Shown here piece by piece: positions 26,199 through 41,364 of a stretch of DNA of 64,000 bases. Both the position numbers and the translations under genes were made by a program. This DNA is from Haloarchaeobius amylolyticus. Lineage in GTDB: Archaea > Halobacteriota > Halobacteria > Halobacteriales > Natrialbaceae. The stretch covers positions 1,612,001 through 1,676,000 of the forward strand of contig NZ_JANHDH010000001.1 of NCBI RefSeq assembly GCF_026616195.1. Reading direction: 5' to 3'. The stretch's first letter is position 1. Every line of letters begins with the position of its first letter. The notes below the pieces were generated by a model that was not told where the DNA came from, did no database searches, and was given only the letters and a program-made list of their open reading frames with translations.

Positions 26199-27722
26199 AT
26201 GCGACAGCCCGGCCCGCTCCCCCTCGTCCTCCTCCTCGGTGCCCTCGTCCTCCTCGCCGGCTGCAACGCGGTCCCCATCGGCGCACAGGAGGTCGGCGGC
26301 AGCGTCGCCGCGAACGACTCGCTGGCGGCGAACGCGAGCGTCACCGACCCCGGCACCGACCGACAGGGCTGGGAACGCGGCTTCTGGTACGACGAATCGC
26401 TCGCCATCACGACCGCGGACGGGCTGAACGACTCCGAACTCGACGCGGTCGTCGCCCGCGCGATGGCCCGGGTCGAGCACGTCCGCGGCGTCGAGTTCGA
26501 GCGGCCGGTCCCGGTCGAACTCGTCACCCGGAGCGAGTACCGGAACTCCACGATGTCGGGAGCCGGCGCCAGCAGCGGTGACGGCAGCGCGTCGGCGACC
26601 CAGCAGGCCGCGGCCGCCGAGCAGGCCGCCCAGTTCGAGGCGCTGTTCCTCGTCGGCGAGGCGGGCGACGCCGGCCAGCAGCAGTCCGAGAACCGCGGCT
26701 CGACGGTCCAGGGCTACTACGACACGCGACAGGACCGCATCGTCATCGTCTCGAAGAACGACCCGCCGCGACCGAACGAGGTGACCCTCGCCCAGGAGCT
26801 CTACCACGCCTACCAGTTCCGGCAGGTGCTCGCCTCGACGCCGGTCCCCCGGAACATGAACGACGACCAGGTCCGCGGCGTCCTCTCGCTGGTCGAGGGC
26901 GACGCGAACTTCGTCGACCGGCTGTACGAACAGCAGTGCGAGGCGTCGTGGGAGTGCCTGCGCGACGAGGACGCCAGACAAGCCGGCGACGAGGGCGGTG
27001 AAGGTGCCGCCAGCACCGGCGACGACTCCACCCCCTCGATCCATATGGGCCTCTACCTGCTCTCGTACTTCCCCTACGCCGAGGGCGAGGAGCTGATACA
27101 GGACACCTACGCCGAGTCCGGCTGGGAGGGGGTAGACCGGCTGTACGAGGCGCCGCCGCTGTCGAGCGCGCAGGTCATCGAGCAGGACCTCGACTCGGAC
27201 TCGTCGCTGGTGCAGGCGCCCGACCGGAGTTCGGCCGCCTGGGAGCGCGTCGACTCGGGGCCGCCCGGCCGGACCGTCGGCGAGGCCGGCATCGCCACCA
27301 TGTTCGCGTACACCATCTACGACGACCGGAACGCGTCGCTGGTCTCGCGCGATGACTTCCTCAACACCGGGCCGGACGGGAGCGTGAACAGCACGAACCC
27401 GCTGGACTACGGCCTGCCCGAGAGCGACGGCTGGGCCGGCGACACCCTCTACACCTACCGGAACGGCGACCAGACGGGCTACGTCTGGCACACGACGTGG
27501 GAGACGCGGGGCGACGCCCGGCAGTTCGCCGACGCCTACGAGCGACTGCTCGGCTATCACGACGCGGAACAGGTCGACGAGAACACGTTCCTCATCCTCG
27601 AGGGGCCCTTCGCGGACGCCTTCCGGGTGACGGTCGACGGGAAACGGGTGACCATCGTGAACGGGCCGGCGCCCTCGACGCTGTCGGGCATCCACGACGG
27701 GGCGGCGAACGCGACTGCCTGA
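26199..27722 (+). CDS. Large surface lipoprotein (Hvo_1808-like)
   Basis: A 507-residue lipoprotein: hydrophobic signal with lipobox VLLAGC, then an acidic, Asn/Ser-rich extracellular region. Blocks include WERGFWYDESLAITTADGLND, QDRIVIVSKN, TLAQELYHAYQFRQ and GVLSLVEGDANFVDRLYEQ. AQELYHAYQF plus VEGDANF recalls the helix arrangement of zinc-less metallopeptidase-like domains (HExxH replaced by ELYHA), which is inference. The overall sequence resembles, from memory, the uncharacterised haloarchaeal Hvo_1808 surface protein family. The gene converges with the Lut-Liv operon. Confidence 0.72.
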   Translation: MRQPGPLPLVLLLGALVLLAGCNAVPIGAQEVGGSVAANDSLAANASVTDPGTDRQGWERGFWYDESLAITTADGLNDSELDAVVARAMARVEHVRGVEFERPVPVELVTRSEYRNSTMSGAGASSGDGSASATQQAAAAEQAAQFEALFLVGEAGDAGQQQSENRGSTVQGYYDTRQDRIVIVSKNDPPRPNEVTLAQELYHAYQFRQVLASTPVPRNMNDDQVRGVLSLVEGDANFVDRLYEQQCEASWECLRDEDARQAGDEGGEGAASTGDDSTPSIHMGLYLLSYFPYAEGEELIQDTYAESGWEGVDRLYEAPPLSSAQVIEQDLDSDSSLVQAPDRSSAAWERVDSGPPGRTVGEAGIATMFAYTIYDDRNASLVSRDDFLNTGPDGSVNSTNPLDYGLPESDGWAGDTLYTYRNGDQTGYVWHTTWETRGDARQFADAYERLLGYHDAEQVDENTFLILEGPFADAFRVTVDGKRVTIVNGPAPSTLSGIHDGAANATA

Positions 27723-27745: not shown

Positions 27746-29926
27746 CTACCGGACCAGCAACTCGACCGGGTGCCGGATGCCCCGGGAGAGCAGGTCCCCC
27801 AGTTGCTCGGTGCAGGAGGTGCCCGAGGCGACGACGGTCGCCTCCTCTTCGAACTGCTCGGCCAGCGGTTCGCCGACGGCCATGCTCATCTCGTAGTACT
27901 CGGACTTGTAGCCGAAGCTCCCGGCCATCCCGCAGCACTCGGTGTCGGAGGTCCGGACCGTGGCGCCGCAGTCCTCCAGCACCGCGACGGTGTACGGTTC
28001 CAGCCCGAGGGTGCGCTGCTGGCAGTGGCTGTGGTAGGCCACCTCGGCAGGGGGCGATGCCAGGGCGTCGGCATCGGCCCCGTTCTCCAGCAGGCCGTAG
28101 AGGTACTCCATCACCTCGTAGCTCGCGTCGCCGAGGCGCTCGTGGGCCGTCGGCGCGAGGAACTTCTCGTACTCGCGGTCGAACATCGCGAGGTCCGAGG
28201 GTTCGACCACGACCACGTCCCGGCCCGCGTCGATGTGCTCGGCGAGGCTCGCGTACACGTCGTGGGCGTGGTCCTCTGCAGTCGAAACCATGCCCTGCGA
28301 GAGCGGCGCGCGCCCCGACGAGGCCATCTTCGGGACCTGCACGTGGACGTTCAGGGCTTCGAGCGCCCGGACCGCGGCCTTCCCGCGGTCGACCAGGACG
28401 TGGTTCGTGTAGAGGTCGGGATAGAGCACGACCTCCCGGTCGGCCCGGTCGGCCGAGACGGTCGGGCCGCGCGAATCGAACCACGAGACGAGTGTCTCGC
28501 GCCGGAACTCGGGGAGGTCGCGCCGGCGGTCGATGCCGAGGAACCGGTCCATCCCCGCCCGGACGGGGTCGGTTCCGGCGAGCCAGTTCGAGACCGGCGC
28601 GGTCGCGCTGGCCAGCCGGGCGACGGTATCGAAGTTCCCGAACAGGCGCTTACCGAGGTCCAGTCCCGCGGGTTCCTCGTCGGGCGTCAGGCCGTCGACG
28701 AGGTGGTCGAACGTGTCGGGGTCTGCGCCGCGGTTCACCCGGTCCCGGACGACCGTGTTGATCCACGGGATGTCGATCTTCACCGGGCAGGCGTTCACGC
28801 ACCGGGTGCAGCCGGTGCACATGTCGTTGAACTCCGCGGCGCTGTCGAGGCCGTGGACGCCGGCCTCCCAGCCGGTCCCGATGCCGCCCGAGTAGGTCTC
28901 GCCGCCGAAGCCGTGGCCGCCGACGGCCTGGAAGTTCGCACACGAGTTCGAGCAGGCGCCACACCGGATGCAGTAGAGGGTCTCGCGCAGGTGCTCGTCC
29001 TCGCGCATCTCCATCCGGCCGTTGTCGAGCAGCACGAGGTGGAACTCGCGGTCCTCGCCCGTGCCGCGCTCGTCGGCCTCGAAGTCGAAGGTCGGCGAGT
29101 CCGTCGGGGGCGTGAACAGCGAGATGTACTGCGAGATGTCCTGGCCGGTGGCCGCCTTCGAGATGATGTCGACGAAGGGGCCGAGTTCGCGGATGGAGGG
29201 GACGAGCTTCTCCACCCCGGCGACCGCGACGTGCGTGTCGGGCGTGACCGCGCACTTGCGGGCGTTGCCCTCGTTCGTCACGAGCGCGATGGTGCCAGAT
29301 TCGGCCATGACGAAGTTCGCGCCCGTGACGCCCACGTCCGCTTCTTTGATTCGTTCGCCGAGGTAGTCCCGGGCGAAGCGGGTCATCTCCTCCGCGGTCT
29401 CCAGTTCCGCCTCGGGGTCGAACACCTCGTTGAGCAGGTCGGCGATCTCCTCGCGGGACTTGTGCAGCGCCGGCCCGACGAGGTGGCTCGGGGACTCCTC
29501 GGCGAGCTGGATGACGAACTCGCCGAGGTCGGTCTCGTACACGTCGACCCCGGCGTCGGCGAGGGCGTCGTTCAGCTCGATCTCCTCGGTCGTCATCGAC
29601 TTCGACTTCACCAGCGTCTCCGCCGATTCGTCCTCGCAGACCTCTCTGACATAGCGGTTCGCGTCCGCGGCGTCCTCGGCGAGGTAGACCGTCCCGCCGT
29701 TGGCCTCGACCGACTCCCGGACCGTGTCGACGAGGTGGTCGAGGTTCGCGATGGCGTCCTCCTTGATGGCTCGGGCCTGCTCGCGGCTGTCCTCCCAGTC
29801 GTCGAACCGGGCGATGGCGTCGTAGCGCTTCTCGTTCTTGTCCCGGACGCTCGGGCCGATGTTCGGCCCCTCGGCGTCGAGCAGGTAGCGGATCTCCGCC
29901 GCCTTGCGTCGTCTGTCCGCGCTCAT
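27746..29926 (-). CDS. LutB-LutA fusion: LUD-domain ferredoxin protein with CCG domain
   Basis: A 726-residue fusion. Residues about 60-320 are a LUD domain (VTGANFVMAESGTIALVTNEGNAR). Next come two 4Fe-4S clusters, CIRCGACSNSC and CTGCTRCVNACP (about 365-430), then a CCG domain pair typical of LutA/GlpC/HdrB (DLAMFDREYEKF, SHCQQRTLG, TECCGMAGSFGYKSEYYEMS). In bacteria LutA and LutB are separate subunits of the LutABC L-lactate oxidation complex, so here they are joined. The ATG at 29926 overlaps the lutC stop (ATGA). It is the last gene of the Liv-Lut operon. The electron acceptor is unknown. Substrate could be lactate or another 2-hydroxy acid. Confidence 0.88.
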   Translation of the reverse strand: MSADRRRKAAEIRYLLDAEGPNIGPSVRDKNEKRYDAIARFDDWEDSREQARAIKEDAIANLDHLVDTVRESVEANGGTVYLAEDAADANRYVREVCEDESAETLVKSKSMTTEEIELNDALADAGVDVYETDLGEFVIQLAEESPSHLVGPALHKSREEIADLLNEVFDPEAELETAEEMTRFARDYLGERIKEADVGVTGANFVMAESGTIALVTNEGNARKCAVTPDTHVAVAGVEKLVPSIRELGPFVDIISKAATGQDISQYISLFTPPTDSPTFDFEADERGTGEDREFHLVLLDNGRMEMREDEHLRETLYCIRCGACSNSCANFQAVGGHGFGGETYSGGIGTGWEAGVHGLDSAAEFNDMCTGCTRCVNACPVKIDIPWINTVVRDRVNRGADPDTFDHLVDGLTPDEEPAGLDLGKRLFGNFDTVARLASATAPVSNWLAGTDPVRAGMDRFLGIDRRRDLPEFRRETLVSWFDSRGPTVSADRADREVVLYPDLYTNHVLVDRGKAAVRALEALNVHVQVPKMASSGRAPLSQGMVSTAEDHAHDVYASLAEHIDAGRDVVVVEPSDLAMFDREYEKFLAPTAHERLGDASYEVMEYLYGLLENGADADALASPPAEVAYHSHCQQRTLGLEPYTVAVLEDCGATVRTSDTECCGMAGSFGYKSEYYEMSMAVGEPLAEQFEEEATVVASGTSCTEQLGDLLSRGIRHPVELLVR

Positions 29927-30429
29927 CTGTCCTTGAGGACGACGACGTGTACTTCGTTCGGGCCGTGGACGCCCTCGACGAGGCCGCCCATGTCGGCCGT
30001 CGCGGACGGGCCGGTCGCGAAGACGTAGGAGTCCCGGCCGGCGTCGAACTCGTCGGCGAGCCAGTCGACCGCGTCCCGCGTCCCCTCGACGAGGGCGCTG
30101 GCCGCGACGACCGCGACGTGGCGGTTCGGGTAGAGGCTGACCGGTTCGTCGCCCTCGGGCGAGGAGTGGATGAGGATGCTCCCGAGCGCGGCGACGCCGA
30201 GTCGCGCCGGCGTGACGCCAGTGCTCGCGTCGGCGAGTTCTGCGGGCCCCGGCTCGGTCGTCACCGTCTCGGGCAACTCGACGCCCTCGAACGGGAGTGC
30301 GGTCCCGACCGCGGGCGAGTCCAGGGCCGCCGCGATGGCGTCCTCGGCGGCCGCCGCCGGGACCACCTCGACGGTCGCACCCGTGTCGGCGACCGAGTCG
30401 GTGAACGCGTCTGTGACGTTCGTGCTCAT
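29923..30429 (-). CDS. lutC: LutC-like LUD-domain protein
   Basis: A 168-residue LUD-domain protein without iron-sulfur motifs. Its blocks (STGVTPARLGVAALGSILIHSS, YPNRHVAVVAASALVEGTRDAV, YVFATGPSATADM) match LutC, the third subunit of the bacterial lactate-utilisation complex. Its start overlaps the livF stop and its stop overlaps the LutB-LutA start, so it is tightly coupled to both. It is slightly short of the usual 200-240 residues. Confidence 0.85.
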   Translation of the reverse strand: MSTNVTDAFTDSVADTGATVEVVPAAAAEDAIAAALDSPAVGTALPFEGVELPETVTTEPGPAELADASTGVTPARLGVAALGSILIHSSPEGDEPVSLYPNRHVAVVAASALVEGTRDAVDWLADEFDAGRDSYVFATGPSATADMGGLVEGVHGPNEVHVVVLKDR

Positions 30430-31232
30430 ACACCGAGGTAGCGCTGTCGAAGGGCGTCGTCTTTTCGGAGTCGCTCCGTGCTGACCTCGGCGACGACCTG
30501 TCCCTCGTCGAGGATGTAGTGGCGCGACCCGATGGCGAGTGCGGCCGCGACGTTCTGCTCGACGAAGAAGACGGTCACACCCTTCTCGTCGTTGATGTCC
30601 GCGATGATGTCCTCGATGCGCCGGACGATGTAGGGCGCGAGCCCCTCGAACGGTTCGTCCAGCAGCATCAGGTCCGGGTTCGCGGCGAGGGCGCGCGCGA
30701 TGGCGAGCATCTGCTGTTCGCCCCCGCTCATGTTCCGGGCGTGTTTCTCCCGCATGTCGTCGAGTTCGGGGAAGAACTCGAGGACGGCGTCGACCGAGAG
30801 CGAGTCCTCGACGGTGTTCACCGCCAGCTGGATGTTCTCGACCACCGACAGCCGCGGGAAGCAGCGTCGCTTCTCGGGGACGATGGCGATGCCGCGGTTC
30901 GCGCGCTGGTAGGACTCCAGCCCGAGGACGGACTCGCCCCGGTAGCGCACGTCGCCGTCGGTCACCTCGGGCACGTCGCCACCCATGATGGCGCGGATGG
31001 TCGTGGTCTTGCCCGCGCCGTTCCGGCCGAGCAACGAGACCAGTTCGCCCTCGTGGATGGAGAGGTCCACGCCGAACAGGACCTGCCCCGTCTCGTACCC
31101 GGCTTCGAGACCGTCGACCTCGAGGACGGACGGTGCATCGGCCGCCGCGCCCCCGGTGCTGGTCGCGTCGCTCCCGCCCGGGTCGCTCGCTGCGTCCGAT
31201 TCGTCGCGTGGTGTGGGTGCGTCAGAACTCAT
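30426..31232 (-). CDS. livF: LivF-type ABC transporter ATPase
   Basis: A 268-residue ATPase of the hydrophobic amino acid uptake (HAAT) family. Walker A is GRNGAGKT, the signature is MSGGEQQ, Walker B is LMLLDEPFEGLAP, and the H loop ends VFFVEQNVAAAL, the usual LivF ending. The N-terminal ~30 residues are a disordered Asp/Ser-rich extension common in halophiles. It overlaps livG upstream and lutC downstream by four bases each. Confidence 0.92.
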   Translation of the reverse strand: MSSDAPTPRDESDAASDPGGSDATSTGGAAADAPSVLEVDGLEAGYETGQVLFGVDLSIHEGELVSLLGRNGAGKTTTIRAIMGGDVPEVTDGDVRYRGESVLGLESYQRANRGIAIVPEKRRCFPRLSVVENIQLAVNTVEDSLSVDAVLEFFPELDDMREKHARNMSGGEQQMLAIARALAANPDLMLLDEPFEGLAPYIVRRIEDIIADINDEKGVTVFFVEQNVAAALAIGSRHYILDEGQVVAEVSTERLRKDDALRQRYLGV

Positions 31233-32044
31233 AGTTCCTCCCTCATGCCGCCCAGGTAGGCGTCCTGGACCCGTTCGTCGGCCTGGACGTCCTCGGGCGT
31301 GCCGGTCGCGATGATCGACCCGCGGTCGAGCACGCTGATGCGGTCGCTGATGGAGAGCACGACGTCCATGTCGTGCTCGATGAGGACCAGCGTGAGCCCC
31401 AGCTCGGACTGCAGCGACTGGACGAGTTCCGCGGTCGCGTTCGTCGCGTCCGGGCTCATGCCCGAGGTCGGTTCGTCCAGCAGCAACACGTCGGGGTCGG
31501 TCGCCAGCGCCATCGCGATGCCGAGGCGGCGCTGGTCGCCGTGGCTCAGGTTCTTCGCGAGCGTGTCCGGGTCGGCGTCGAGGCCGACGCGCCGGAGGTG
31601 CTCGCGGGCCGTGTCGTCGCCGACCTCGCGGTGGTCGCGGAACAGGTCCCAGCTGAAGTCGCCGCGCTCGGTGGTCTGGACGACCACGCGGACGTTCTCC
31701 AGGACGGTCTGGTCGGCGAACAGCTCGTTGGACTGGAACGACCGCGCCAGCCCGCGGTGGGGGCGGTCGTACTCCGGGTCGTCGGTGATGTCGGTACCGT
31801 CGAGGAAGATGCGGCCCTCGGTGGGCGAGAGCGTCCCCATGACGGTGTTGAACAGGGTCGTCTTGCCGGCCCCGTTCGGGCCGATGATGGCCCGGAGTTC
31901 GCCCGGCTCGATGCCGAGGGAGACGTCGTCGACCGCCGTCACCTCGCCGAAGGTCTTGCGGAGCCCGTCGGTGGCGAGGGCGGCCTCGGATTTCGGGACC
32001 GCCCGGTCGACCTCGACCGGCTCGTCACGTGGCTCGCTGCTCAT
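31229..32044 (-). CDS. livG: LivG-type ABC transporter ATPase
   Basis: A 271-residue ATPase. Walker A is GPNGAGKT, the LivG-type Q-loop region is GLARSFQSNELF, the signature is LSHGDQRRLGIA and Walker B is VLLLDEPTSGMS. LSHGDQ is the LivG/urea-type variant of LSGGQ. With LivF it forms the heteromeric ATPase pair of the importer. Four-base overlaps on both sides indicate translational coupling. Confidence 0.92.
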   Translation of the reverse strand: MSSEPRDEPVEVDRAVPKSEAALATDGLRKTFGEVTAVDDVSLGIEPGELRAIIGPNGAGKTTLFNTVMGTLSPTEGRIFLDGTDITDDPEYDRPHRGLARSFQSNELFADQTVLENVRVVVQTTERGDFSWDLFRDHREVGDDTAREHLRRVGLDADPDTLAKNLSHGDQRRLGIAMALATDPDVLLLDEPTSGMSPDATNATAELVQSLQSELGLTLVLIEHDMDVVLSISDRISVLDRGSIIATGTPEDVQADERVQDAYLGGMREEL

Positions 32045-33165
32045 TCGGCATCACCCCGAATCCGCGTGACGAGCCGCGAGATGCGGCCCGTGAGGAAGCC
32101 CCAGACGCCCTCGAGGGGTGCCGCCACGACCACGACGACGAAGATGCCGCCGAGGAAGAACGGCCAGTCCGCGGCGAGGTCGAGGCTCAGGACACCGAGG
32201 TCGAGCACCCCGAAGTCGGTGAGGAACTCCTCGGCGAACTGCCAGAGGAACACCCCGGCGATGGGGCCGAAGTAGTACCGGACCCCGCCGAGGACCGCCA
32301 TCAGGACGGTGTCACCGCTCGTGGTGACCGAGAGCGTCTCCAGGGACGCCCCGAAGTCGTTGATGGAGAGCAACGCCCCCGCGAGTGCGGAGAACATCGC
32401 GCTCAGGGTGAACGACTGCACCTTGTACCGCGTGGTGTTCACGCCCATCGCGCGGGCGAGGTCCTCGTTCTCGCGGATGGCGACCAGCGACCGCCCGAAG
32501 GGCGAGCGCGTGACCTGCCAGAGCGCGAGCATCGCGGCGAGGAACACCAGCGCGACGAACCAGTACCAGTCCAGCGCGTCGAAGCCCGCGACCTCGAACG
32601 GGAGGGGCAACGAGAGCCGCCCCCGCGTGGTCTCGACGAACGCCGGGAGGACGCCCTGCGAGATGCCGTTCGAGCCGCCGGTGAGTTCGCCCGGGTTCTT
32701 GTTCGCCGTGAAGTGGATGGCCTGGGCGACCGCCAGCGTCAGGAAGGCGAAGTATATCTCGCCCTTCTGGACCGTGAGCCGGCCGATGCCGTAGCCGAGG
32801 CCGGCCGCGAGCACCATCCCGAGCAGCGTCGCGATGGGGAACCCGAGGACCGGGAAGCCCGCGTGCCCGGAGACGCCCAGTGCGGCGGCGTACATCCCGA
32901 TGCCGAGGAACATGGCGTGCCCGAACGAGAGTAATCCCGTATAGCCGAACAGCAGGTTGAACGCCGCGACGTACAGCATCCAGATGAGCATCGTGGCCGC
33001 GATGGCCTCGAACCCGAGCAGGAACGGGAGCGACACCAGTGGCTTGAGCAGCACCACGAGTGCGACCAGGCCGAGTGGAATGCGGTAGCGCCGGACGAAC
33101 GCCTTCACCGTGGCGAGGCCGTCGGCCTCGCGTTCCGCCTCGCCGTGTGCGGTCTCGCCACTCAT
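32041..33165 (-). CDS. livM: LivM-type ABC transporter permease
   Basis: A 374-residue membrane protein with about nine hydrophobic helices. The family blocks LFGYTGLLSFGHAMFLGIGMY and RSPFGRSLVAIRENEDLARAMGVNTTRYKVQSF (the coupling loop) are clear. It pairs with LivH to form the channel of the importer. A charged N-terminus faces the cytoplasm. Overlaps LivH by four bases. Confidence 0.92.
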   Translation of the reverse strand: MSGETAHGEAEREADGLATVKAFVRRYRIPLGLVALVVLLKPLVSLPFLLGFEAIAATMLIWMLYVAAFNLLFGYTGLLSFGHAMFLGIGMYAAALGVSGHAGFPVLGFPIATLLGMVLAAGLGYGIGRLTVQKGEIYFAFLTLAVAQAIHFTANKNPGELTGGSNGISQGVLPAFVETTRGRLSLPLPFEVAGFDALDWYWFVALVFLAAMLALWQVTRSPFGRSLVAIRENEDLARAMGVNTTRYKVQSFTLSAMFSALAGALLSINDFGASLETLSVTTSGDTVLMAVLGGVRYYFGPIAGVFLWQFAEEFLTDFGVLDLGVLSLDLAADWPFFLGGIFVVVVVAAPLEGVWGFLTGRISRLVTRIRGDAE

Positions 33166-34181
33166 TCGAGGAACCCCTCCTCGCCGAACAGGCCGCGTGG
33201 TCTGACCAGCAGGATGAGCACCATCACGAGATACGGGACGATGCCGCCGATGTCCGCGCCGAGGACGCCGATGCCGGTGACCTCGGCCAGCGCGTCACCC
33301 ACGGCCGGCACGAGGAAGCGTGCCTCACCGATGAGCAGGCCGCTGACGACGCTCCCGAACAGGCTGCCGACGCCGCCGACGACGACCACGACGAACGCGA
33401 GGATGACGAACGTCTCGCCCATCGTCGTGTTCATCGTGTACTCCGGCGCGTAGAGCGCCCCGGCGAGGCCGGCGATGGCCGCCCCCACGAAGAACATCGT
33501 GGTGAAGCGGAACGGGAGGTTCACGCCGACGAACTCGGTCATCTCGCCGTCCTGCACCCCGGCCCGGACCGTCAGGCCGTAGTCCGTCTTCGAGATGAGC
33601 GCGTAGACGGCGACGACGGTCACGACCGCGACCGCGACGATGAACAGGCGGAACGCGCCCACCTGCGTCGGGCCGAGGTCGACGCTCGCCGCGAGCAACC
33701 CCGGCTTGTCGTAGCCGAGTGGCTGCGTGCCCCAGTGGCTCTCGATGACCTGTTCGATCATCATCGTCAGGCCGAACGTCGCCAGCAGGCTGACGATGGG
33801 GTCCTGGTCGTACAGGTAGCGCAGGACCGTCATCTCCAGCAACACGCCGACGACCCCGACGAAGACGGGGACGAGCACGAGCGCCGCCCAGAACGGCAGG
33901 CCGAACGTGACGACGACCGAGTAGGAGGCGTACGCACCCAGCATGAAGAACGCCCCGTGGGCGAAGTTCACGATGCCCATCAGCCCGAGGATGAGCGACA
34001 GCCCGAGCGTGATGAGCACCAGGACCATCCCGTAGACGAGGCCGCCGATGGCCTGGTCGATGAACAGCCCCGGGTCGACCGCCGCCGTGATGCCAAGCAG
34101 GACGAGCGTCACGACGCCGACCGCCCACCAGACGGGCGAGACGGCCACGAGACGCTCACGTGTGAAGGTGCTCGTGCTCAT
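33162..34181 (-). CDS. livH: LivH-type ABC transporter permease
   Basis: A 339-residue membrane protein with about eight helices. The blocks LGLMGIVNFAHGAFFMLGAY and KTDYGLTVRAGVQDGEMTEFVGVNL are the LivH signature and coupling loop. It begins six bases downstream of the substrate-binding protein gene and overlaps livM at its end. Confidence 0.92.
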   Translation of the reverse strand: MSTSTFTRERLVAVSPVWWAVGVVTLVLLGITAAVDPGLFIDQAIGGLVYGMVLVLITLGLSLILGLMGIVNFAHGAFFMLGAYASYSVVVTFGLPFWAALVLVPVFVGVVGVLLEMTVLRYLYDQDPIVSLLATFGLTMMIEQVIESHWGTQPLGYDKPGLLAASVDLGPTQVGAFRLFIVAVAVVTVVAVYALISKTDYGLTVRAGVQDGEMTEFVGVNLPFRFTTMFFVGAAIAGLAGALYAPEYTMNTTMGETFVILAFVVVVVGGVGSLFGSVVSGLLIGEARFLVPAVGDALAEVTGIGVLGADIGGIVPYLVMVLILLVRPRGLFGEEGFLE

Positions 34182-34187
34182 CGATGG

Positions 34188-35456
34188 TCAGAACGAACAC
34201 CCGGTGTCGGCCACGGACCGCGCCACGTCGTCCCCCGCGAACGTCTTCGTCGCGGTGAACCAGCGCTTGTAGGGGTCGTCCTGCATGTCGTCCCGCGGGA
34301 GCGCCTCCATGCTGAACGTCGGCTGGACGAGCTGGTGGTCGCCCTCGCGCCAGTACATCTTCCCGCCGCCCTTGATGTCCTTCGCGGGCGAGGAGACCTC
34401 GTGCCCCTCGAGGGCCGAGCGCATGTCCTCGGCGCCCGAGGAGTCGGCCCGGACCGCCGCCCGGACCGCCTGGTCCATCGCGACGTAGCCGAGGTAGTGC
34501 CGGACGTAGGGGCTGGTCTCGGAGTTCTCCGCGACGCGGGTCGCGAAGTCGTTGCTCGCGCTGTTGTCCACGCCGGGACCCCAGACCTGCCCGGCCGCGT
34601 CGAGCACGCTGGCGGCCTGCTTGTCGTTGTACACCGCGTCCTCGAGCTGGTGCATCGCGAGGACGTGGTTCTCCTGCATACCCTTGGCGACGAGCTGGTT
34701 GGTCGCCTTGCGGAGGTCGAGGCCGGCGACGAGCATCCCGATGCCGTCGGCGTCGGCGGACTTCGCCTCGTTGAGGTAGGGCGCGTAGTCGTCGTTGGGG
34801 AACGGCGTCGCGGACTTCCCGACGACGGTCTTGCCCTGGTTCTCGAGGATGCGCGTCACCGCCTCCTGGGCGGTCTGGCCCCACGAGTAATCGGAGTACA
34901 GCAGGTACCAGTTGTCCGCCTGGCCCGCCATCTCCTCGCCGATGGTCGCCGCGAGCATCGAGTTCGAGGTCGTCGGCCGGAAGACGTACTTCCCACAGCC
35001 GCTCCCGGTGAGCGCGTCGGAGTGCGCCCCGGTCGGGAAGTAGACGACCTCGTTCTGGGACGCCCACTCGCCCATCTTCAGGGCCACGCTGGAGGAGACC
35101 GCCCCCATGGTGAAGTCCGCCTCGTCCTCCGTGACCAGTTTCTTCATCCGGCTGACGCCGGTGCTCGGTTCGAGCTTCGTGTCCGCGGTGACGACGTCGA
35201 TGTCGACGCCGAGTTCGTCCTTCAGGTCCTCGACGGCCAGTTTCGCGCCGTCGAGCGCCGACTGTCCGAAGACGGCGAACGGTCCCGACAGGGACGTGGT
35301 GTACCCGACGGTGAGCGAGTCGGTGCCGCCGCCACCACCGCCCAGTCCCCCGAGACAGCCCGCGAGTCCGGTGAGGCCGGCCGCCCCGGCCGCGCCGAGC
35401 GTCTTCAGTGCAGTGCGTCTACTCGTTCCCGTGCCACGATTATTGGTGCCACCCAT
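34188..35456 (-). CDS. livJ: Substrate-binding lipoprotein of the Liv-type importer
   Basis: A 422-residue Tat lipoprotein: SRRTALKTLGAAGAAGLTGLAGC, then a Gly-rich linker and a periplasmic-binding-protein type I (Leu/Ile/Val- or amide-binding) domain starting LTVGYTTSLSGPFAVFG. The domain runs to the end. FmdD/UrtA/LivJ-like proteins bind branched amino acids, urea, short amides or aromatic acids; this sequence does not settle the ligand. It is the first gene of the operon, which ends in Lut genes, so a carboxylate fed to Lut is a reasonable guess. Start at ATG 35456 fits the TATA element at 35479-35487. Confidence 0.9.
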   Translation of the reverse strand: MGGTNNRGTGTSRRTALKTLGAAGAAGLTGLAGCLGGLGGGGGGTDSLTVGYTTSLSGPFAVFGQSALDGAKLAVEDLKDELGVDIDVVTADTKLEPSTGVSRMKKLVTEDEADFTMGAVSSSVALKMGEWASQNEVVYFPTGAHSDALTGSGCGKYVFRPTTSNSMLAATIGEEMAGQADNWYLLYSDYSWGQTAQEAVTRILENQGKTVVGKSATPFPNDDYAPYLNEAKSADADGIGMLVAGLDLRKATNQLVAKGMQENHVLAMHQLEDAVYNDKQAASVLDAAGQVWGPGVDNSASNDFATRVAENSETSPYVRHYLGYVAMDQAVRAAVRADSSGAEDMRSALEGHEVSSPAKDIKGGGKMYWREGDHQLVQPTFSMEALPRDDMQDDPYKRWFTATKTFAGDDVARSVADTGCSF

Positions 35457-35475
35457 GCCAACCAATTTCAAACCC

Positions 35476-35490
35476 GGTGCTATAAGCACC
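35476..35490 (-). promoter_or_regulatory. Liv-Lut operon promoter: 15-bp palindrome over the TATA box
   Basis: GGTGCTATAAGCACC has perfect 6-base arms around ATA. The core read on the minus strand (GCTTATAGC) lies 23-31 bases before the livJ ATG and is the obvious TATA box. A dimeric regulator bound here would directly block or modulate TBP binding for the whole seven-gene operon. Confidence 0.6.
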
Positions 35491-35718
35491 TATGGTAGCA
35501 TCCCACATACCTGCCATTGAATTAACGGTACAGTACTGGAATAATCAATTCTGTTAAATCGAAGTGCTAGTTTGCCGCAAAGTACCAAACTCTGTGCCGG
35601 TTCCCCGAACGGGCCCGCGTCGAGGAGCGTCGGGCCCGGTACCGACGGCGACGAGCCCGCTCGAACCGCACGGCGGCAGGGTGGAACCGCACGGGGCGCC
35701 CCCGCCGCGGCGAACGCA

Positions 35719-36762: not shown

Positions 36763-37638
36763 ATGCGAGGCACCGGACTACCACTCGTGACGCCCTTCAC
36801 CGACGACGAGACCATCGACGAGCCCGCCCTCCGGGACCTCGTCGGCTGGGTCGACGACGCCGGCGTGGACTTCGTCGTCCCCTGCGGGTCGAACAGCGAG
36901 GCCGCGATGCTCACGCCGACCGAACGGACCCGCGTCGTCGAGGTCGTCGCCGACGAGACAGACCTGCCCGTCCTCGCCGGGACCGGCCACCCCGGCCTGC
37001 ACGGGACACTGGAGCAGACGACCGCGGACGCGGCCGCCGGCGCGGACGCCGCGCTCGTCGTGACGCCCTTCTACCACCAGCACGACCAGGCCGCGCTGGC
37101 CAGCTACTACCGCGACGTGGCCGACGAGAGTGCCATCCCCGTGTACCTCTACAGCGTCCCGAAGTACACCGACACCGCGCTCGACCCGGAGACGGTCGGC
37201 GACCTCGCCACGCACCCGAACGTCCACGGCATCAAGGACTCCAGCGGGAGCCTCGAGGCGCTCCAGCGAACCGTCGACCGGACGGAGGAGGCGGACTTCG
37301 ACGTGCTCGTCGGGAGCGGGAGCATCTACGCCGCGGGGCTGGAGTACGGCGCCTCGGGCGGCGTGCTGGCGCTGGCGAACGTCGTGCCCGACCTCGCCAG
37401 CGAGGTGTACGCGCGCCACGAGTCGGGCGACACCGACGGGGGCCGCGCCCTGAACCAGTCGCTGGTCGAACTCAACCGTGCCGTGACCGCCGGGTACGGG
37501 GTGCCCGGGCTGAAGGCCGCGATGCGCCACCGCGGCCAACCCGCGGGCCGGACCCGGCGACCCTTCGAACCGGTCGCTGCCGACGCGGAAGCCGAACTCG
37601 CCTCACTCGTCGACGCCGCCCTCGACGCCGACGTCTGA
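36763..37638 (+). CDS. DapA-family aldolase/lyase
   Basis: A 291-residue class I aldolase of the dihydrodipicolinate synthase/N-acetylneuraminate lyase family. The pyruvate-binding GSNSEAAMLT block, the Tyr region VYLYSVPKYT and the Schiff-base Lys in HGIKDSSG are visible. Substrate cannot be fixed: members split or form 2-keto-3-deoxy sugars or make dihydrodipicolinate. The C-terminus is followed 36 bases inside by the end of the convergent TOBE regulator gene, an unusual overlap. The family-like start is MRGTGLPLVTPF. Confidence 0.88.
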   Translation: MRGTGLPLVTPFTDDETIDEPALRDLVGWVDDAGVDFVVPCGSNSEAAMLTPTERTRVVEVVADETDLPVLAGTGHPGLHGTLEQTTADAAAGADAALVVTPFYHQHDQAALASYYRDVADESAIPVYLYSVPKYTDTALDPETVGDLATHPNVHGIKDSSGSLEALQRTVDRTEEADFDVLVGSGSIYAAGLEYGASGGVLALANVVPDLASEVYARHESGDTDGGRALNQSLVELNRAVTAGYGVPGLKAAMRHRGQPAGRTRRPFEPVAADAEAELASLVDAALDADV

Positions 37639-38337
37639 GCCTGCGGTAGCCGCCGACTCCACGGCCACCGCCCGCGTCGCGGTCGCCTTCGCGGTCACGA
37701 CGACCGCGGCCCCGGGTTCGAGGCCCAGTCGGTCCACGCTGTCCATCGTCACCAGCGCCGACAGCGGCGCGTCCGCCCCCACGTCGACCGTGACCGTCGC
37801 GACCGCCTCGCCCGCCTCGACGTGCTCGACGGTCCCCTCGAAGCGGTTCCGGGCGCTCGTGCCGCCGGCCGGTGGCGCGTCGGCGGGTTCGTGCAGCGTC
37901 ACCGCGTCCGCCCGGAGCCACACCTGCACGTCGGTCGCCCCCGGCGGGACCAGCGCCCGTACCTGCCCGACCGCCGTCTCGACCGTGCCGAGTTCGCCGT
38001 CACGGGCGACGACCCGGCCGTCGAGGACCGTCTGCTCGGCCTCCGCGACACCGGCGAACTCGGCGCTGAGACGCTGGAAGCGCGCGAGCAGGTCGCGGGC
38101 CCGGGGCGTGAGCTGGCTGCCGCCGCCGCCCGAGCCGCCGCGAGTGCGCTCGACCAGCGAGCCGAACGCCTCCTCCAGCGACTGCAACCGGGCGAGCGAC
38201 CGGGCGTACGAGCGCCCGAGGTCGTCGGCCGCGCGGTTGAGCGAACCGGCGTCGTCGATGGCCCGCAGCAGCCGCGCGTCCTCGGCGCCGAAGGTCACGT
38301 CGCCCGCGCGCAGGCCGGCCTCGAAGTCGCCCTCCAT
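37603..38337 (-). CDS. ModE-like molybdate/tungstate-responsive regulator (HTH plus TOBE domains)
   Basis: A 244-residue protein: winged HTH of the LysR/ModE type (about 10-110, LLRAIDDAGSLNRAADDLGRSYARSLARLQSLEEAFG) followed by two TOBE/Mop-like domains (about 115-235, LVPPGATDVQVWLRADAVTL and LSALVTMDSVDRLGLEPGAAVVV). Mop domains bind molybdate or tungstate, so this is a sensor-repressor for the divergent wtpABC operon. The start MEGDFEAG at 38337 is preferred to an upstream one. A Gly-rich loop in the wing (RGGSGGGGS) is typical of ModE. Its 3' end overlaps the convergent aldolase gene. Confidence 0.88.
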   Translation of the reverse strand: MEGDFEAGLRAGDVTFGAEDARLLRAIDDAGSLNRAADDLGRSYARSLARLQSLEEAFGSLVERTRGGSGGGGSQLTPRARDLLARFQRLSAEFAGVAEAEQTVLDGRVVARDGELGTVETAVGQVRALVPPGATDVQVWLRADAVTLHEPADAPPAGGTSARNRFEGTVEHVEAGEAVATVTVDVGADAPLSALVTMDSVDRLGLEPGAAVVVTAKATATRAVAVESAATAGSDVGVEGGVDE

Positions 38338-38365
38338 GCCCGACCGTCCGCGAGCCGTCGGCAAA

Positions 38366-38400
38366 ACCGTTATGTCACGGCGGCCGGAACACCGTTGTAT
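38366..38400 (+). promoter_or_regulatory. wtpA promoter with a direct repeat
   Basis: CCGTTATGT at 38367-38375 and CCGTTGTAT at 38392-38400 form a degenerate direct repeat 25 bases apart in the 65-base divergent spacer. The first covers the expected TATA position (28-36 bases before the ATG at 38403) and the second abuts the start. They are the best candidate operator for the ModE-like regulator. Confidence 0.45.
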
Positions 38401-38402
38401 CT

Positions 38403-39413
38403 ATGTCGAAACAACGCTCCTCGCGCCGGTCCTTCCTCGCCGGCGCGGCGGCGACGGGAACCGCAGCACTGGCTGGCTGTCTCTCCTCGTTCACGGGGGG
38501 CGGTGGCGGCAACACCGCGACCATCTTCCACGCGGGCAGTCTCGCGGCACCCTTCGGTGACGCCGAGGAACCGTTCGAGGAGCAACAGGACGCCGACGTG
38601 GTCCGCGAGGCGAAGGGCTCGGTCGGGTCGACCCGGAAGATCACCGAGCAGGGCAAGTCCGCGGAGGTCCTCGGCGTCTCCGACTTCCGGCTCATCCGGG
38701 ACATGGTGCTGCCCGACTACGGCGAGTGGTACAGCATCTTCGCGACCAACTCGATGGCCATCGCCTACACCGACGAGTCGACGGGTGCCGACGAGTTCTC
38801 GACCGAGACCTGGTGGGAGGTCCTGACCCGGGACGACGTGACCTTCGCCCACAGCGACCCGGCGGTCGACCCGAACGGCTACCGGTCCCGGATGGCGATG
38901 AAACTCGGCGCCATCGAGTTCGAGGGCGAGCGTCTCTACGACGGATCGACCCGCGACGCCCTCATCGAGCAGTCGAACATCCCCTCGGGCACCGAGACGG
39001 AACTCATCGCCCAGCTCGAATCCGGCGAACTCGACTACGCGTGGCAGTACACGTCCGCGGGCGCGAGCCACGACGTGAACGTCATCGAGCTCCAGCCGGC
39101 GGTCAACCTCGCCGTGGCGGACCAGAAACACGCCAGACACTACGCGAAGGCGACGGTCGAGGCCGGCGGGAACACCTACACCGGCGCCCCCATCGCCTAC
39201 GGACTCACGGTCCCCGGCGTGGCCGAGAACCCCGACCTCGGCGCGCAGTGGGTCGAGTTCATGGCCAGCGAGGAGGGCAAGGGCATCTTAGAGGACAACG
39301 GGTTCTCGCCGGTCTCGCCGCTGGTCGTCCCCGAGAGCGGGAAGGGCAACGTGCCGGAGAACGTGATGGGCAAGGCCGAGGCGCGCTCGAGCCTCGGACC
39401 GCTCGAGCTGTAG
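38403..39413 (+). CDS. wtpA: Tungstate/molybdate-binding lipoprotein
   Basis: A 336-residue Tat lipoprotein (SRRSFLAGAAATGTAALAGC) of the WtpA/ModA class II family. Conserved blocks include IFHAGSLAAPF near the start, VLGVSDFRLIRDMVLPDYGEWYSIFATNSM and DPAVDPNGYRS. The family captures oxyanions outside the cell and passes them to WtpBC. The gene starts an operon with wtpB and wtpC and is divergent from a ModE-like regulator, which supports tungstate or molybdate over other anions. Confidence 0.9.
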   Translation: MSKQRSSRRSFLAGAAATGTAALAGCLSSFTGGGGGNTATIFHAGSLAAPFGDAEEPFEEQQDADVVREAKGSVGSTRKITEQGKSAEVLGVSDFRLIRDMVLPDYGEWYSIFATNSMAIAYTDESTGADEFSTETWWEVLTRDDVTFAHSDPAVDPNGYRSRMAMKLGAIEFEGERLYDGSTRDALIEQSNIPSGTETELIAQLESGELDYAWQYTSAGASHDVNVIELQPAVNLAVADQKHARHYAKATVEAGGNTYTGAPIAYGLTVPGVAENPDLGAQWVEFMASEEGKGILEDNGFSPVSPLVVPESGKGNVPENVMGKAEARSSLGPLEL

Positions 39414-39445
39414 CGCGGGGTTCTTCACCCCACACTCCCTGTTCG

Positions 39446-40432
39446 ATGGCGATGGAAGGACAGACGGCGACCGGACGCACCCCGATGAGCGAAACGCTCG
39501 GACGCGGCTCGCTCGCCGTCGCGGTCGCCACGGTCCAGCTCGCGGTCTTCGCCGGCCTGATCGCGCTCGACAGGCCGACGCTGTACGTCCCGTTCGCGCT
39601 CGCCAGCGCCGCCGCCCTGGGGTACGCGAGCGACCGGGGGTGGTTCGGGCTGGCGACCGCCAGCCTCGGGACCGTCCTGTTGCTCGCGCTCGCCCTGCCA
39701 CTCGGGCTGTTCGTCGCCCGCCAGAAGCCGGGGCTGGTCGCCGACGCGCTCACCGACCCGGCGGTCCACCAGATGCTCTACCTGACCATCTACGCGCCGC
39801 TGGTCGCCGCGGTCGCCGCCCTGCTGTTCGGCGTCCCGCTGGCGTACCTCCTCGCCAGAGGGTTCCCCGGCGACGCGGTCGTCGCGGCGCTCGTCGACCT
39901 CCCGCTGGTGGTCCCGCACTCGGTCGCCGGCATCCTCATCCTGTTCGGGTTCGGCCGCCGCGGGGTCCTCCCGGGCGTCTCGGTCCTCGGGACGATGGCC
40001 GGGATGGTGCTCGCGCTCGCGTTCGTCGCCGCGCCCTTCGCGGTCAATGCGGCCCGCGACGCCTTCGAGGCGGTCGACCCGCGACTGGAGTACGCCGCCC
40101 GGAGCCACGGCGCGAGCCAGGCCGACACGTTCCGCCGGGTGAGCCTCCCGCTGGCGAAACGCGGCATCGCGACCGGCGGCGTGCTGGCGTGGGCCCGCGG
40201 CGTCAGCGAGTTCGGCGCGGTCGCCATCGTCGCCTACACGGTCCAGTTCTTCTACCCGCCCGCGCTCGACACGGTGCCCGGCACCCACGCCCCGGTGTAC
40301 ATCTTCCAGCAGTACAACCAGTCCGGGCTCGACGAGTCCGGCGCGGTCGCGTTCGTCCTGCTCGTGCTGTCGCTGCTCATCTTCCTGCTCGTCCGGTGGC
40401 TCGGCTTCGGCCGGCTGGGTGGTGCCTCGTGA
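39446..40432 (+). CDS. wtpB: Tungstate/molybdate ABC transporter permease
   Basis: About 328 residues. After a soluble start and two extra helices (SLAVAVATVQLAVFAGLIAL and neighbours), the BPD-type permease domain begins near residue 110. It has the cytoplasmic loop block EYAARSHGASQADTFRRVSLPL that contacts the ATPase. Starts at 39446, 39452 or 39485 are all possible; the last removes a 13-residue leader. Its stop overlaps the wtpC GTG. The N-terminal two-helix extension makes it longer than the usual 250 residues. Confidence 0.88.
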   Translation: MAMEGQTATGRTPMSETLGRGSLAVAVATVQLAVFAGLIALDRPTLYVPFALASAAALGYASDRGWFGLATASLGTVLLLALALPLGLFVARQKPGLVADALTDPAVHQMLYLTIYAPLVAAVAALLFGVPLAYLLARGFPGDAVVAALVDLPLVVPHSVAGILILFGFGRRGVLPGVSVLGTMAGMVLALAFVAAPFAVNAARDAFEAVDPRLEYAARSHGASQADTFRRVSLPLAKRGIATGGVLAWARGVSEFGAVAIVAYTVQFFYPPALDTVPGTHAPVYIFQQYNQSGLDESGAVAFVLLVLSLLIFLLVRWLGFGRLGGAS

Positions 40433-41364
40433 GCCTCGACTTCGCGGTCCAGTCGCGGTTCACCGCCCCTGGCGCCGAGCCGTTCACGGTCGACGCCGAC
40501 CTCGCGGTCGAGACCGGGGAGACGCTGGTCGTCCTCGGCCCCAGCGGGAGCGGGAAGACCCTGCTGCTCGAATGCGTCGGCGGCCACCACGCCCACACCG
40601 GCCACGTCGCGAGCCACGGCCGGGACCTGAGCGACACCCCGCCCGAGGGCCGCGACTTCGGCTTCGTCTTCCAGGACTACGCGCTGTTCCCGCACATGAC
40701 CGCCCGCGAGAACGTCGCCTTCGGGGCGAAGTACCACGACGAGGTTGGCGACCCGGACGAACTCCTCGCCGACCTCGACGTGGGCGACCTCGCGGCCCGG
40801 TACCCGGACACCCTCTCGGGCGGCGAGCAACAGCGCGTCGCCCTCGCGCGCGCCCTCGCCATCGACCCCGACGTGTTGCTGCTCGACGAGCCGCTGTCGG
40901 CGCTCGACGCGCCGACCCGCCGGGGGCTCCGGGGCGACCTCGCCGACGTGCTCGCCGAGGTCACGGCGCTGTACGTCACGCACGACCGGACGACCGCCCG
41001 GGCGCTGGCCGACCGCGTGGCCGTCATGCGCGACGGACAGGTCGTCCAGGTCGGCACGCCAGACGCGGTGTTCGAGGAGCCGGCCACCGCGTTCGTGGCC
41101 CGGTTCGTCGGCGCGAACGTCCTCCCCGGGCGCCTCGTCGGCGCGAGGACGGACGCGGTCGCCATCCGCCCGGAACACGTCCGCCTCGGCGAGGGCGAGT
41201 ACACCGGCACGGTCGAGCGCGCCGCCCGCGAGGAGGCCGCGACCCGGGTGACGCTCGACGTGGACGGGGCCACGGTCGAGGCGCTGGTGCAGGGACCGCC
41301 GGCCGTCGGCGACTCGGTCGCGGTGGCCCTGCCGTCGGCACACGTCACCCCGCTCGACGGGTAG
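40429..41364 (+). CDS. wtpC: Tungstate/molybdate ABC transporter ATPase
   Basis: A 311-residue ATPase starting at a GTG that overlaps the wtpB stop (GTGA). Walker A is GPSGSGKT, the Q-loop region is FVFQDYALFPHMTARENV, the signature is LSGGEQQR, Walker B is VLLLDEPLSALD, and YVTHD is the H loop. A TOBE domain (about 230-311) closes the protein, typical of oxyanion importers that are inhibited by their own substrate. Confidence 0.92.
   Translation: MSLDFAVQSRFTAPGAEPFTVDADLAVETGETLVVLGPSGSGKTLLLECVGGHHAHTGHVASHGRDLSDTPPEGRDFGFVFQDYALFPHMTARENVAFGAKYHDEVGDPDELLADLDVGDLAARYPDTLSGGEQQRVALARALAIDPDVLLLDEPLSALDAPTRRGLRGDLADVLAEVTALYVTHDRTTARALADRVAVMRDGQVVQVGTPDAVFEEPATAFVARFVGANVLPGRLVGARTDAVAIRPEHVRLGEGEYTGTVERAAREEAATRVTLDVDGATVEALVQGPPAVGDSVAVALPSAHVTPLDG

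Follow-up and report, generated by a model that had tools for sequence, protein, structure and literature searches.

A haloarchaeal operon joining a Liv-class ABC importer to a Lut oxidation module, a candidate system for 2-hydroxy-acid utilization

Lactate uptake is usually attributed to secondary permeases. The LutABC and LldABC modules are made up of LUD, ferredoxin, and CCG components, as is the oxidation module of the operon described here. Characterized LutABC and LudBC systems have been linked to lactate, and deletion of LudBC (HVO_1692/1693) in Haloferax leads to poorer growth on rhamnose, a sugar whose degradation gives pyruvate and lactate (PMC8305020 for both).

The operon lies in a 64,000-nucleotide stretch of Haloarchaeobius amylolyticus DNA, the whole of which was analyzed and is referred to as the window. 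Seven genes on the minus strand (27746-35456) encode a binding protein, livH, livM, livG, livF, lutC, and a LutB-LutA fusion (Table 1), and Pfam and NCBIfam profile matches bear out the identities that an earlier note on this DNA had given to all of them. The same note had the genes joined by 4-base overlaps, which is correct for five of the six junctions (ATGA) but not for that between the binding protein and livH, a 6-base gap. With a binding protein, two permeases, and two ATPases, the subunit set of a LIV/HAAT ABC importer is complete. Uptake and oxidation of a 2-hydroxy acid is the best reading of these genes, and it is reasonably likely that they form a complete 2-hydroxy-acid utilization system, with L-lactate as the foremost candidate, combining an ATP-driven importer with an iron-sulfur oxidase. 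The exported lipoprotein would catch the acid outside the cell, and, from what is known of the families, LivH-LivM would form the membrane channel while LivG-LivF power uptake with ATP. LutC and LutBA would oxidize the acid to a 2-oxo acid, which would be pyruvate if the acid is lactate, and electrons would pass through the iron-sulfur clusters of LutBA to the respiratory chain. We infer the ligand, the direction of transport, the affinity, and the single transcript alike.

Table 1. Coordinates of the operon features in the window and the matches on which their assignments rest.
Feature	Position	Strand	Evidence
Solute-binding protein, 422 aa, Tat-type lipoprotein, Liv/HAAT class	34188..35456	-	Peripla_BP_6 E 4.8e-57; AlphaFold2 mean pLDDT 88; closest PDB folds 4maa, 3i09, 3n0w
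livH-type permease, 339 aa	33162..34181	-	BPD_transp_2 E 2.6e-34; under UrtB and LivH equivalog cut-offs
livM-type permease, 374 aa	32041..33165	-	BPD_transp_2 E 1.1e-34
livG-type ATPase, 271 aa	31229..32044	-	ABC_tran and BCA_ABC_TP_C
livF-type ATPase, 268 aa	30426..31232	-	ABC_tran E 4e-30
lutC, LUD-domain protein, 168 aa	29923..30429	-	LUD_dom E 1.3e-14
lutBA fusion, 726 aa: LUD domain, two 4Fe-4S motifs, one intact CCG motif	27746..29926	-	LUD_dom, Fer4; NF045670 LdhH 445 bits (cut-off 800)
Upstream region, TATA-like stretch ~30 bases 5' of the 35456 start	35457..35516	-	By eye from sequence

Upstream, trkA is divergent from the operon, with 294 bases between them. At the other end, the gene for an Hvo_1808-family surface protein (26199-27722) converges on lutBA and lies 23 bases beyond its end. 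Elsewhere in the window (37603-41364), the gene for a ModE-like HTH-TOBE regulator is divergent from one for an SBP_bac_11 binding protein, which is followed by an ABC ATPase gene; this is probably a molybdate or tungstate importer, and the middle gene of the locus (39481-40432) had no Pfam match.

LUD domains are found in both LutC and LutB, and the LutB part of the fusion carries two 4Fe-4S motifs (C319/322/325/329 and C370/373/376/380). The CCG cysteines of LutBA are C635/664/665/705, and only the second CCG motif retains its cysteines. Those of the first are gone in all 17 haloarchaeal LutBA rows aligned, so the protein is filed as a haloarchaeal LudBC variant and not as a canonical LutABC. 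As a LUD-ferredoxin-CCG fusion it best matches the LdhH model (NF045670, Table 1) and the LutB model (TIGR00273, 358 against 445 bits), both under the equivalog cut-off. The fusion as such is ordinary among haloarchaea. Its predicted model is weak (mean pLDDT 66.6), and a ferredoxin was the only match when solved structures were searched by sequence with LutBA.

Whether this gene order is conserved in other haloarchaea was a check that the earlier note had proposed. The order is kept in six of six Haloarchaeobius genomes together with its flanks (dapA-trkA and the Hvo_1808-family gene), and because order and flanks are both kept the operon is more than a chance arrangement. Halorubellus salinus (L047) has the Liv-lut order without the Haloarchaeobius flanks and with an opposite-strand gene call between livF and lutC, indicating that a single Liv-lut transcript is not universal. 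Further afield, Liv-lutC-lutBA occurs in Haloferacaceae archaeon XH8 and Halobacteriales archaeon QS_1_68_17, and Salinigranum salinum has Liv-E1alpha-E1beta. Three Halovenus species and two uncultured Halobacteriales have an Ldh_2 gene next to Liv, some of them on contigs already in the genome set. Relatives of LivH with at least 52% identity amount to 33 loci in 31 of the 392 genomes of the order, and the next match has at most 44%, a gap that, with the low number of genomes, marks the LivH subfamily as sparse and distinct.

Several other arrangements were observed around Liv and lut genes. Liv and Lut are ~27 kb apart in genome G063. What follows lutC-lutBA at locus L067 (genome G042) is a distant Liv set together with the gene for a GlcD-type oxidase, and genes for E1 alpha and IclR lie on its opposite flank. 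L075 (genome G001) has a further Liv set and an MFS gene close to lutC-lutBA. At loci L078 and L079, ~4 kb separate a paralogous Liv set from the gene for a YdiJ-type FAD-CCG protein (1024 aa), and in between are an HTH gene and a gene for a 582-aa protein with no Pfam match. A gene for an Nramp-like transporter is near another lut locus (L057:6324-7664), and a gene of the same cluster occurs at L043:11052-12653.

The genome from which the window comes (G000) has a second lut locus with the order lctP-lutC-lutBA (L006, G000:C1 2015413-2019897), the LutBA of which is 63% identical to that of the operon. It also has a lone LUD-domain match that does not adjoin lutBA (L007, G000:C2 346998-347441). 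The statement in the earlier note that lut operons usually carry a lactate permease fits this second locus, and it fits 10 of 40 lut loci fetched from relatives, which have LctP beside them; the 40 were picked among the matches listed from a longer set. A full Liv set is near 8 of the 40 (L038-L042, L047, L067, and L075), and 22 have neither in a stretch of ~19 kb; neighbors were listed for 8 of these 22, and most of those examined resemble housekeeping genes by eye. LctP (PF02652), the one permease family searched for in these genomes, is present in G000, G002, and G004. It was not found in the other three of the six Haloarchaeobius genomes (G001, G003, and G005), all of which keep Liv-lut, nor in G063, nor in G042, where lutC-lutBA is beside the more distant Liv set and GlcD-type gene.

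In a concatenated tree of the five importer subunits, the window falls together with these named relatives (XH8, QS_1_68_17, the Ldh_2 carriers, and Salinigranum salinum) in a clade of 21 rows (20 distinct loci) with an SH-aLRT support of 100. Seventeen of the 20 loci have an oxidase or E1 neighbor: lut in 9 (one also with GlcD), GlcD alone in 1, Ldh_2 in 5, and E1 in 2. L120 and L122 have none, and L116 is cut off by a contig edge. Within the clade, Liv is found with lutC-lutBA or with the gene for a GlcD-type oxidase, for an Ldh_2 dehydrogenase, or for a 2-oxoacid-dehydrogenase E1; the Ldh_2 genes are convergent to Liv and outside the Liv operon. Members of the subfamily outside this clade include 12 loci beside beta-oxidation-type clusters (Pfam-checked in one), where the partners are a 3HCDH-enoyl-CoA hydratase, a thiolase, and an acyl-CoA ligase, and the sister-group Liv sets of G000 and G002 are ~4 kb from a YdiJ-type FAD-CCG protein. 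With such neighbors the broader subfamily looks like one for organic-acid transport, and not exclusively for lactate. For the window clade itself, we see an even chance that it is a haloarchaeal family dedicated to ABC import of lactate-type 2-hydroxy acids, that its members have been paired on more than one occasion with oxidases of different chemistry (Lut, GlcD, Ldh_2, and 2-oxoacid dehydrogenase), and that they replace LctP in some genomes.

The 422-residue reading of the binding protein starts at 35456 and has a Tat-like RR motif and a LAGC lipobox (identified by eye from the consensus); with the GTG at 35489, farther upstream, as start codon, the protein would have 433 residues. Its AlphaFold2 model is good (Table 1). 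Solved structures were searched with this model for a close match of known ligand, and the titles of the three best matches, given in Table 1, name no ligand. The next-ranked folds are mostly R. palustris aromatic-acid binders, which by Z score stand above leucine-binding proteins, and a fold shared with known binders does not reveal the ligand. T142, H145, and K250 are among the residues that are invariant in 11 clade rows and absent from 7 sister rows, and they are a lead only on the predicted pocket. The view in the earlier note that the ligand cannot be read from the sequence stands for this sequence alone, but neighbors across relatives narrow its class.

In place of lactate, the substrate could be another acid of the 2-hydroxy or 2-oxo type, for instance glycolate, pyruvate, or a branched 2-hydroxy acid. 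In favor of this reading, the binding protein belongs to the branched-chain class, the title of a related fold (4obb) gives a methyl-2-oxopentanoate as its ligand, and the partners of Liv in relatives include GlcD (glycolate oxidase family), Ldh_2 (malate, lactate, ureidoglycolate, and sulfolactate families), and 2-oxoacid dehydrogenase E1. We consider the reading unlikely, as the paralogous locus in the same genome has an L-lactate permease and the link of LutABC and LudBC to lactate cited above (PMC8305020) points the same way.

A more doubtful explanation is that a branched-chain amino acid importer merely adjoins lut and that the two parts are functionally unrelated. The family names and the branched-chain type of the ATPase C-terminal domain speak for it, whereas the importer subunits are well under the NCBIfam branched-chain amino acid equivalog cut-offs (LivF, LivG, and LivH), and membership was rejected on that basis. 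Linkage to acid oxidases is also clade-specific. We compared 97 LivH places with those of LUD, FAD-oxidase_C, and Ldh_2 in 20 genomes, using every LivH row (97) and every FAD row (56), together with 38 of 64 LUD rows (short lutC matches beside the first omitted) and 5 of 6 Ldh_2 rows, where two fragments were counted as one. One of these oxidase genes is within 8 kb of 11 of 12 window-clade LivH loci, against 2 of 6 for subfamily members outside the clade and 3 of 79 for Liv loci outside the subfamily, in related genomes partly picked for carrying the clade, so that the trials are not independent. The counts are identical at 10 and 15 kb, and the twelfth window-clade locus (in G241) has a 2-oxoacid dehydrogenase E1 gene as its neighbor. 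Ldh_2 occurs in only 4 of the 20 genomes, yet each of the 3 genomes sampled from one genus has it next to window-clade Liv.

Recurrence of the pairing also argues against such a bystander importer. The tree of LutBA proteins separates XH8 and QS_1_68_17 from Haloarchaeobius and Halorubellus, and a single clade of Liv-linked LutBA was rejected (AU p 0.022, a modest value from a quick tree of 31 of 46 rows; p 7e-5 with L067, L075, and L109 added). Because the Liv-linked LutBA are spread over more than one clade, the Liv-Lut pairing probably arose repeatedly. On this comparative evidence (order, linkage, and trees), the Liv-class importer and the Lut oxidation module, as proposed in the earlier note, look functionally coupled.

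That note also raised the possibility of an imported amino acid as the precursor of a 2-hydroxy or 2-oxo acid. Binding proteins with the same fold often bind amino acids, but no aminotransferase or deaminase was recognized among the Liv-lut neighbors that could be identified, which are a part of all neighbors, and we hold this route to be very improbable. A urea transporter (UrtABCDE) is next to inconceivable: UrtB, UrtC, UrtD, and UrtE are the best-scoring NCBIfam models for the permeases and ATPases, but every Urt equivalog is under its curated cut-off (UrtA 67 against 493 bits), and membership was rejected.

If uptake of a 2-hydroxy acid is indeed the function, an ATP-driven, binding-protein-dependent route would fit archaea gathering trace lactate in brine. 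It would also provide a substrate class for a transporter clade otherwise annotated as branched-chain amino acid transport, and the pairing of Liv with oxidases would predict the ligands of relatives from their neighbor genes.

Among described systems, haloarchaeal LudBC with LctP (HVO_1692, HVO_1693, and HVO_1696) shares with this operon a LutBA fusion of similar length (733 aa) and a LutC (PMC8305020), whereas the operon uses an ABC importer with a binding protein and not the LctP permease. Bacillus subtilis LutABC and Pseudomonas stutzeri LldABC have lactate use in common with the proposed system (PMC8305020), but here LutB and LutA are fused and only one of the two CCG motifs has its cysteines. 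LivJHMGF and other HAAT importers, including the R. palustris aromatic-acid binding proteins, share fold and subunit composition with the importer, which differs in scoring under the Liv and Urt equivalog cut-offs and in its genomic context of acid oxidation. A lactate ABC importer of the Liv class was not found in searches of open-licence papers. In Phaeobacter inhibens, a Liv-class ABC transporter has reportedly been assigned to L-lactate on the basis of mutant fitness, and it would be a bacterial lactate importer of the kind proposed here. Compared with these systems, the operon is a new combination of known parts.
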